This document shows, piece by piece, positions 21,099-61,949 of a stretch of 64,000 nt of DNA; position 1 is the first letter of the stretch; every line of letters begins with the position of its first letter. A model generated the notes under the pieces. That model made no database searches and had not been told where the DNA came from. It saw only the letters and a program-made list of their open reading frames with translations. Origin of the DNA: Maridesulfovibrio salexigens DSM 2638 (GTDB lineage: Bacteria > Desulfobacterota > Desulfovibrionia > Desulfovibrionales > Desulfovibrionaceae); contig NC_012881.1 in NCBI RefSeq assembly GCF_000023445.1, positions 3,277,501 through 3,341,500 on the forward strand, read 5' to 3'. The position numbers and the translations under genes are program-made.

Positions 21099-22103
21099 CT
21101 ATTTTTTAGTGCGGACAGTAAGTCCCAAATCCTCAAGCATGGTCAGATCGTGATCTATACCCTGCCCTGATACGGTGAGAAAATCGCCTACCATCAGGCC
21201 GTTACAGCCGGCATGGAAAATAAATGATTGCAGGGAACGCAGTGCGGCACGTCCCGCGGCCATGCGCACTTCCGCATGAGGATTGACCAAACGGAACATC
21301 GCGATAGTCAGCAGAATTTCCAGAGGCTGTAATGGTTCAACATTCTCCAGAGGAGTTCCCGGAATGGGAATCAGGAAATTAAGGGGAATGGAATCAACTT
21401 CCAGCTCCGCAAGTGCAAGAGCCAGTTCAACCCGCTGTTGATGACTTTCACCTAGGCCCAGCAGCCCGCCGCAACAGACTTCTAGTCCGGCTTTTTTGGC
21501 ATCACGCACCGTACGTACCCGCTCTTCATAGCTGTGGGTGGTGCAGACATTCGGGAAATAGCTTTCCGCAGCCTCAAGGTTATGGTGATAACGAACTACG
21601 CCGGATTCGTGCAGCTTCTTCAATGACTCAAAATCAAGGCAGCCAAGTGATGCACAATGGTTAAAACTCCTCTCGCGCATACCGTCCACAGCTTCACAGA
21701 CATGATCAAGAGATTTACCCTTTAGCGCCCTGCCGCTGGTCACATAACTGAAGAATTCAAGGGGTGACTGCCCTGCTTTCTCAGCACAGTCCCGGATTTC
21801 CTCCACCGACATGAGCGGGTAAGCCGGAGCCGGTGTGCCTTTAAAATGGCTGGACTGAGCACAGAAAGTACAATCTTCCGAACAGTTCCCGCTACGTACG
21901 TTAGCGATGGAACAAAGACTGACCTCGCGCCCGAAACGCCGCATGGTCATGGTATGTGCAGCATGCAAAATTTCTGCAAGCTCTCCGTGGGAAGCACCGA
22001 GTACTGAAACCGCAGTGTGTTCATCAATGGCCCCGCCACCGTGAACGGCATTCCACAAAGCCTGTTTCTCGTTTCTATCCAAAATATTACCCCTGAAGGC
22101 CAA
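21099..22103 (-). CDS. bioB: Biotin synthase
   Basis: A 334-residue radical-SAM enzyme that inserts sulfur into dethiobiotin, the last step of biotin synthesis. The radical-SAM cluster is CSEDCTFC (CxxxCxxC). [22 protein letters not shown] and AAGRAALRS are conserved BioB segments; the last includes the arginine near the [2Fe-2S] site. The gene overlaps the end of bioA by 17 bases, so it is translated within the same biotin operon. It is the terminal gene before a strong bidirectional terminator. Confidence 0.97.
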
Positions 22104-60338: not shown

Positions 60339-60514
60339 GCACACCTCACAATTAACTTCAATCATTACTAAAACTTACAAACAAAAAACATTTTTTTCAG
60401 GCACGTATTGTCTTCAACATAGCCCATTTCGCACTTTAGAAAAAGAGCTATATTTAAAAATAACCAAGACTTAACCGAGATAAATATAAAATAAGCTTCA
60501 CAAAATACTCTCTG

Positions 60515-60543
60515 TTGACAACTCTTATGATGCGGAGTAAACA
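60515..60543 (+). promoter_or_regulatory. Likely trpB promoter
   Basis: A perfect TTGACA -35 box (60515-60520) followed after 17 bases by TAAACA. The start point would fall very near the leader-peptide ATG at 60554, leaving little room for a ribosome-binding site, so the -10 assignment is tentative. Confidence 0.45.
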
Positions 60544-60553
60544 CTTCTTCATT

Positions 60554-60607
60554 ATGAACGTTTCTTACTCCAACTTTACCCTTTATTTTTGGTGGTGGCG
60601 CAGCTAA
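60554..60607 (+). CDS. trpL: trp leader peptide with three consecutive tryptophan codons
   Basis: A 17-codon frame, MNVSYSNFTLYFWWWRS, ending at TAA 60605-60607. Three adjacent TGG codons are hardly coincidental directly upstream of a tryptophan synthase gene and a terminator. Ribosome stalling at these codons when charged tRNA-Trp is scarce would allow the antiterminator to form. An in-frame ATG at 60530 would add eight residues. Neither start has a strong Shine-Dalgarno sequence. Confidence 0.85.
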   Translation: MNVSYSNFTLYFWWWRS

Positions 60608-60694
60608 TGCGTCGCGGTTGGTTACGTTCAAAAAACAGGTAACAAATATAAATTTCATAGAACCGCGACAGTGAGAACTGATCGCGGTTTTTTT
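60608..60694 (+). promoter_or_regulatory. trp transcription attenuator
   Basis: The terminator is AACCGCGACAGT (60661-60672) paired with ACTG-A-TCGCGGTT (60677-60689) around loop GAGA, then a seven-T run to 60694. The competing antiterminator segment GTCGCGGTT (60611-60619) is a perfect 9-base complement of AACCGCGAC (60661-60669). A short CGCA/TGCG pairing around the leader stop codon could release the terminator when translation completes. The whole is a classical ribosome-mediated attenuator. Confidence 0.88.
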
Positions 60695-60737
60695 ATGCCT
60701 GCACAGCACTGTCGTAGAAAAAATTCAGGAGAGAAAA

Positions 60738-61949
60738 ATGACTGACAACGCAACTATCAATGCAGACGGCTTTTTTGGTGAATACGGCGGACAGTATGTT
60801 CCCGAACAGCTTCTTCCTATCCTGAACGAGCTGGCGGAAACATATGAAAAATTTAGAAAAGATCCTGAATTCATCAGAGAATTTCAGTACTATCTGGCAA
60901 AATACTCCGGCCGCCCCACTCCCCTCTATCTCTGCTCCAACCTCACCGAAGAACTCGGCGGTGCTAAGATCTATCTCAAGCGCGAAGACCTCAACCATCT
61001 CGGCGCCCACAAAGTAAACAACACCATCGGCCAGATCCTGCTGGCAAAACGTATGGGTAAGAAAAAAATCATCGCTGAAACCGGAGCCGGACAGCACGGT
61101 GTAGCTACTGCCGCAACCTGCGCGCTCATGGGTATGAAATGTACCATCGTCATGGGCGAAGTGGACATGGAACGCCAGAAACTGAACGTTTTCCGTATGC
61201 GTATGATGGGTGCGGATGTTGTTGCTGCAAAATCCGGACAGAAGACTCTCAAAGAAGCAGTAGACGAAGCGCTTGCCGCATGGATCGGTGATGCTGAAAA
61301 CACTTTTTACCTGCTCGGTTCCGCGGTTGGACCCCACCCCTACCCGATGATGGTCCGCGACTTCCAGTCCGTGATCAGTAAAGAAGCCAAACAGCAGTGC
61401 CTTGAAGACGAAGGCCGTCTGCCTGATTACTGCATCGCCTGTGTGGGCGGCGGTTCCAACGCCATCGGCATGTTCGCAGAATTCATTGCAGATGAATCCG
61501 TCAAACTCATCGGTGTAGAACCTTCAGGACGCGGCCTTGAGCCGGGAGACCATGCAGCCACCCTTTGTCTTGGTGAACCTGGCGTAATGCACGGCTTCAA
61601 CTCCTACATGCTCAAGGATGAAAAAGGCGAACCTGCTCCGGTCTACTCCATCTCCGCAGGTCTCGACTACCCCAGCGTAGGACCCGAGCATTCCCATCTT
61701 AAGGACCTCGGCCGCGCTGAATACGTCCATGCATCCGACAAGGAAGCCACTGATGCATTCTTCAAGCTCTCCCAGACTGAAGGTATCATCCCCGCACTCG
61801 AGTCCTCTCACGCGCTGGCCTACGCTCTCAAGCTGGCACCGCAGCTCGACAAGGACAAAATCATCATCGTCAACCTTTCCGGTCGCGGTGACAAAGACGT
61901 TGCCCAGATCGAAGACATGATCAGCAATGGCGAACTTACTTTGCCTTAA
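60738..61949 (+). CDS. trpB: Tryptophan synthase beta chain
   Basis: A 403-residue PLP enzyme joining indole and serine into tryptophan. The N-terminal [11 protein letters not shown] marks the TrpB1 type that pairs with TrpA. The PLP lysine is Lys92 in [13 protein letters not shown] and the phosphate-binding loop is [10 protein letters not shown]. The length fits TrpB1. It stands alone: trpA does not follow, and a repeat and terminator come next. Expression is controlled by the leader peptide and attenuator just upstream. Confidence 0.96.

Follow-up and report, generated by a model that had tools for sequence, protein, structure and literature searches.

The 64,000-nt window analysed here (Maridesulfovibrio salexigens DSM 2638, NC_012881.1, positions 3,277,501-3,341,500 of the forward strand; coordinates are those of the window unless another frame is named) carries at 60515-60737 an element that is, with high confidence, a ribosome-mediated transcription attenuator by which the supply of charged tRNA-Trp governs a lone trpB gene. 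Beyond this element, the trp operon of the same genome appears to be under a second attenuator of the same logic, in which the coding 3' end of tyrA would act as the leader. The parts of the window element are as follows.

60515-60543, + strand: promoter-like element TTGACA-N17-TAAACA, with a weak -10 match (pattern in 17/17 own-genus loci)
60554-60607, + strand: predicted leader peptide ORF MNVSYSNFTLYFWWWRS, 17 sense codons plus TAA, Trp codons at 60590-60598
60597-60602, + strand: region 1, by folding the partner of 60608-60613 in hairpin 1:2, whose loop contains the stop codon
60611-60619, + strand: region 2, GTCGCGGTT, which pairs with region 3 as the putative antiterminator (complementarity, covariation)
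60661-60669, + strand: region 3, AACCGCGAC, common to antiterminator and terminator
60660-60694, + strand: terminator hairpin 3:4 (60660-60690) and U-run (folding, -18.5 kcal/mol)
60707-60714, + strand: region 5, CACTGTCG, complementary to 60666-60673 in the 5' half of the terminator
60738-61949, + strand: trpB, the lone paralog and the gene controlled (TIGR00263, 612 bits against 392)

An earlier note on this DNA had proposed a classical trp attenuator, consisting of a 17-codon leader with three consecutive Trp codons, a segment perfectly complementary to the 5' arm of a strong intrinsic terminator, and trpB downstream, and the leader, competing stems and terminator, kept ahead of orthologous trpB genes, support that reading. 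Regions 2 and 3 are reverse complements at 9/9 positions, and the antiterminator and the intrinsic terminator are mutually exclusive in that 2:3 and 3:4 use the same region 3. Hairpin 2:3 alone comes to -16.5 kcal/mol and hairpin 1:2 to -9.1 kcal/mol (-13.0 with two extra pairs). When the leader was folded, as the note had advised, the segment 60530-60700 beat 200/200 dinucleotide shuffles (z -3.9), and the 2:3 duplex was equalled or bettered by 6/500 shuffles of the segment from the Trp codons to the terminator. Region 2 starts 15 nt past the last Trp codon and 6 nt past the first base of the stop codon, at which spacing a stalled ribosome would free region 2 and a ribosome at the stop codon would cover it, the ribosome footprint size used in this logic being a matter of general background. 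The ORF with consecutive Trp codons, a predicted translation, is conserved, and a trp gene, trpB, follows on the same strand.

An ungapped consensus scan of the trpB leader region returned neither promoter nor terminator (the -10 TAAACA is weak and the stem is bulged), and a finder requiring nearly ungapped stems misses the window's own terminator; terminators were called by a folding-based finder, which missed the weaker terminator of one locus (L219) that other passes detected. The bare count of TGGTGGTGG was discarded as evidence, the motif being not rare (53 in the genome versus 66 for the backward pattern), and it is the combination of features, not TGGTGGTGG alone, that is unusual in the window element. 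The TGGTGGTGG match at 3412358 lies opposite another ORF, which we take to be an ammonium transporter, and is unrelated. The best of three permissive Rfam matches to 60450-60800 was RF00513 (Trp_leader), aligned over 60587-60697 and model positions 1-100 of 100; its score of 18.1 bits (E 0.33) falls short of the gathering cut-off of 41. That a protein or tRNA attenuates transcription by acting directly on the RNA, in the manner of TRAP or a T-box and with no translating ribosome, is in our judgement hardly credible: no Rfam family, T-box included, reached its gathering score in the window, the best permissive match is to Trp_leader, and a WWW ORF with fixed spacing, if translated as predicted, is what a ribosome sensor requires.

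Under ribosome-mediated attenuation, transcription would begin a few bases upstream of the leader ATG. When Trp is scarce, the ribosome would stall at codons 13-15 and cover region 1, region 2 (60611-60619) would then pair with region 3 (60661-60669) before region 4 exists, and polymerase would enter trpB; when Trp is ample, a ribosome at the stop codon (60605-60607) would cover region 2, 3:4 would form and transcription would terminate near 60694. In the equilibrium fold (-23.5 kcal/mol) the terminator prevails although region 2 is left free, and antitermination must therefore be kinetic, as in known attenuators. The leader, alternative stems, spacing and conservation in this account are taken from the sequence; the start site, ribosome footprint, termination and Trp response we infer.

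The pattern TTGACA-N17-TAnnnn is present in 17/17 own-genus loci. Because the leader ATG lies 9-10 nt past this promoter-like element in the 16 leader-bearing loci of the genus, and no Shine-Dalgarno sequence before it was seen on reading the sequences, the trpB leader mRNA is probably leaderless. The trpL of Sinorhizobium meliloti is likewise leaderless, with its ATG at or beside the transcription start, and the window leader resembles it in having an ATG near the start that its promoter-like element predicts, although the two belong to different phyla and precede different genes. E. coli trpL has a run of Trp codons in a short leader peptide, three stems (1:2, 2:3 and 3:4) that form as alternatives, and an intrinsic terminator, all ahead of trpEDCBA. 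The window element shares with it (RF00513) the Trp-run leader, the three stems, the terminator and a trp gene downstream, but would control a lone trpB rather than trpEDCBA, has three Trp codons, is probably leaderless, shows an extra 3:5 complementarity past the U-run and scores below the Rfam cut-off.

Both types of trpB were found in all 17 genomes of the genus searched, and a WWW leader and terminator precede the orthologous trpB in 16 of them; the remaining one, G004 (L020), has neither before its lone trpB and keeps the promoter-like element. Among 44 genomes from 38 other genera, 16 (15 genera) encode a TrpB of the solitary type, a type set by similarity (62-81% identical, versus <=56% for other full-length TrpBs) and not by gene isolation. 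A WW or WWW leader with a terminator stands before 13 of these 16, twelve found via the folding-based finder and L219 by other passes; in L207 a WW ORF is present but no U-run terminator follows it, and L213 and L214 lack both leader and terminator. L124, the closest of 80 TrpB loci (74% identical), has a WW leader and terminator. The comparison of orthologs that the earlier note called for finds both the Trp codons and the stems kept in 16/17 genus loci and 13/16 other solitary-type loci, rather than the lack of both that it had named as contrary evidence.

The 2:3 stem was aligned for 23 of the 29 loci that passed the folding-based finder (L124, L209, L210, L211, L212 and L217 were left out). 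Of the 161 cells of this alignment 97.5% pair, whereas sliding the stem leaves at most 52.5% paired. A two-sided change is seen at only 1/7 pairs, where U-A becomes C-G in 8/23 sequences, and by counts of pairs or of pair types the alignment does not rise above shuffles. For own-genus loci, a 2:3 duplex as good arises in 4 to 48 of 500 shuffles; outside the genus, >50/500 reach it in 7/13 loci scored. Region 2 starts 14-16 nt past the last Trp codon in 20/29 loci measured. The thought that trpB merely has a constitutive, Trp-insensitive terminator in its 5' UTR and that the WWW ORF is incidental, which the commonness of TGGTGGTGG would suit, is very unlikely given that leader and terminator co-occur as they do (16/17 and 13/16), that they are jointly absent in L020, L213 and L214, with L207 as the exception, and that the competing 2:3 stem keeps pairing across loci.

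For region 5, after the U-run, <=5/500 shuffles pair as well in 16/16 own-genus leader-bearing loci, and the same holds for 4/13 loci outside the genus; 89% of its pairing cells pair, with two-sided changes at 3/8 pairs and slid controls at <=55.6%. A role in masking the trpB Shine-Dalgarno sequence was dropped because the two are not complementary in the window; by reading of the sequences only L208 looks that way.

The controlled gene is a trpB, as the earlier note had it, and is not, as might be supposed, the trpB of the trp operon. A second trpB, 54% identical to that of the window, sits in trpE-G-D-C-F-B-A behind tyrA (order read from translations), and the window trpB is therefore the lone paralog. 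It stands alone, the nearest recognised upstream gene being a divergent one for a fructose-6-phosphate aldolase-like protein and the next ORF downstream being convergent, and it perhaps serves indole salvage. A search for PF01371 (Pfam Trp_repressor) gave 0 matches in the own genome; among 14 controls, E. coli and B. subtilis match.

The operon that holds the second trpB is preceded by two further features of interest, both located on the locus sequence L004.

L004 8401-8481 (genome ~3405900-3405980), - strand: TyrA C-terminus SWWWRDNNT and stop, putative antiterminator segment and strong terminator before trpE
L004 13768 downward (genome ~3411267), - strand: leader ORF that contains the run YFFYFFYFW, followed by a terminator, in front of the aromatic supraoperon

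We consider it likely that in Desulfovibrio and its relatives a WWW tail acquired by prephenate dehydrogenase (TyrA) attenuates trpEGDCFBA, and that the own genome has a nested circuit of three attenuators without TrpR. In such a circuit a Phe/Tyr leader would stand at the head, the tyrA-trpE element would follow, with translation of the WWW tail of TyrA deciding the passage of polymerase from the Phe/Tyr genes into trpEGDCFBA, and the lone trpB would have its separate element. The own-genome TyrA ends in ADRASWWWRDNNT and a stop; directly after the stop comes GGAGAAG, next AAAGACCGCGTTCTCCCGGAACGCGGTC and its T-run, and trpE lies further on.

TyrA matches were found in 177/199 genomes of the family, from which 90 tyrA loci were examined (30 returned and 60 fetched to cover many genera), and in 54/61 genomes of a search across the order, 40 of them outside the family and 22 of these examined as loci, which gives a set of 112 loci from six families. 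A terminator of <=-15 kcal/mol whose start falls no more than 20 nt ahead of, or 60 nt past, the last base of the stop codon is present in 73/112. These 73 loci, from 21 genera and six families by our own count from the tables, are non-independent in that 16/73 are own-genus; their Trp runs are WWW in 68, WWWW in four and WW in one, i.e., at least WWW in 72/73. Pairing between the terminator's 5' arm and the stretch that follows the Trp codons beats >=175/200 shuffles in 73/73 loci (>=190 in 68), and the core of the putative antiterminator starts 16-26 nt past the first base of the last Trp codon in 73/73, versus 23.5% of 3650 shuffles. Relative to the tyrA stop codon, the core lies anywhere from about -18 to +5 among the loci listed. 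As the core is fixed with respect to the Trp codons and variable with respect to the stop, its spacing is kept to the Trp codons and not to the protein end, and a spacing tied to the Trp codons is a requirement of the stalled-ribosome model. In many species the residues after WWW, often Gly-Gly, would then be the coding shadow of the antiterminator.

The tyrA-trpE terminator might instead simply end the tyrA operon, with trpE under a promoter of its own and the WWW tail serving the TyrA protein. Such an arrangement is unlikely, if less so than the rival readings of the trpB leader, and the ~200 nt between terminator and trpE in the own genome are in its favour, as is the persistence of WWW, perhaps by inertia or through another use, in 18/39 loci without a terminator, including 9/18 with no trpE motif found nearby. 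This last class is soft, since some trpE genes escape the motif and in L067 the contig stops shortly past tyrA. The other terminator-less loci keep WWW in 5/9 cases where trpE lies further on and in only 4/12 where trpE follows tightly, against WWW or WWWW in 72/73 terminator-bearing loci (Fisher P 4e-11, kinship ignored), and this contrast, together with the pairing and the fixed core spacing in 73/73, speaks for attenuation. So does the distribution of the tail: WW occurs within the last 60 TyrA residues in 0/28 loci read outside the order, where the TyrA matches in 38 genomes of the phylum (from a drawn genome list) all stop at or before residue 241 of the 261-residue query; for solved structures found by sequence, the alignment reaches no further than residue 227. 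In L081, L090, L093, L102 and L107 the TyrA tail shows just one W, with F or L next to it on the C-terminal side, and no trpE motif was found nearby, which is consistent with decay of the Trp run where a sensor role is absent.

The genome that shows a natural loss of the element at the lone trpB (G004, L020) yet retains its tyrA-trpE element. In the genus g5, 9/14 loci (L051, L053, L054, L056, L058, L062, L113, L114 and L115) have between the tyrA terminator and trpE a 25-codon ORF reading MNGT, an in-frame TGA at codon 5, then KKSENRKKIKGWQVIPRPYH and a stop, with a Shine-Dalgarno sequence upstream of its ATG; the ORF is diverged in L052 and L055, and the pattern used finds none in L050, L061 and L063. 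With TGA read as U, it has no NCBIfam (L056, L115) or Pfam (L056) match; the TGA possibly encodes selenocysteine.

In 16/17 genomes of the genus, the first gene of the supraoperon is preceded by a leader with many Phe and Tyr codons, such as MQTFNTLGTGLSYFFYFFYFWC, and by a terminator (-24 to -30 kcal/mol); no Phe/Tyr leader was found in the 17th (L265), whose contig ends by our reckoning ~206 nt upstream, short of the site. The position fits that of a putative attenuator which PMC1173090 lists for the D. vulgaris supraoperon; Table 7 of that paper gives the same order (aroA', aroB', aroQ-pheA, aroF, tyrA, trp operon) and one attenuator, before aroA', the row as printed having none between tyrA and the trp operon. 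In open-licence PMC literature, as covered by titles and the starts of abstracts, we found no description of a Trp attenuator inside tyrA, and searches there for attenuation in Desulfovibrio or the deltaproteobacteria gave no papers. The tyrA element looks attenuator-like, but its leader would be the 3' end of a gene that encodes an enzyme, and in this it looks new.

Expression data for D. hydrothermalis, as listed in Table 1 of PMC4162548, can be set beside this scheme. By RNA-seq at 10 versus 0.1 MPa, trpE, trpG and trpD are lower and no gene from 21548 to tyrA is listed; trpC and trpF are also absent, the list being subject to a cut-off such that absence is not proof of no change. At 26 versus 0.1 MPa, the genes from 21548 to trpF are lower, together with a separate trpB (21414), which is listed apart from the aro/trp cluster 21548-21557; the lists in that table hold no operonic trpB or trpA. 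The break between tyrA and trpE and the co-regulated lone trpB match what the scheme predicts, the stimulus in that study being pressure, not Trp.

A sensor made of three Trp codons within a full-length protein has a counterpart in Chlamydia YtgCR, where, in the account given in PMC7755916, WWW codons alter trp gene expression, and Trp starvation lowers a trans-acting repressor and leads to a Rho-independent loss of downstream transcription. In contrast, the Trp codons of tyrA precede a putative cis attenuator, and starvation should raise downstream transcription. The window element would extend classical Trp attenuation to the Desulfovibrionales and to a lone trpB. If the tyrA element is what it appears to be, a leader can be something other than a dispensable peptide, with the closing codons of a complete enzyme serving as the sensor; the supraoperon would be divided into a Phe/Tyr part and a Trp part by an RNA switch placed where two genes meet; and a conserved protein tail, the WWW of TyrA, may owe its conservation to reasons that lie in the RNA.
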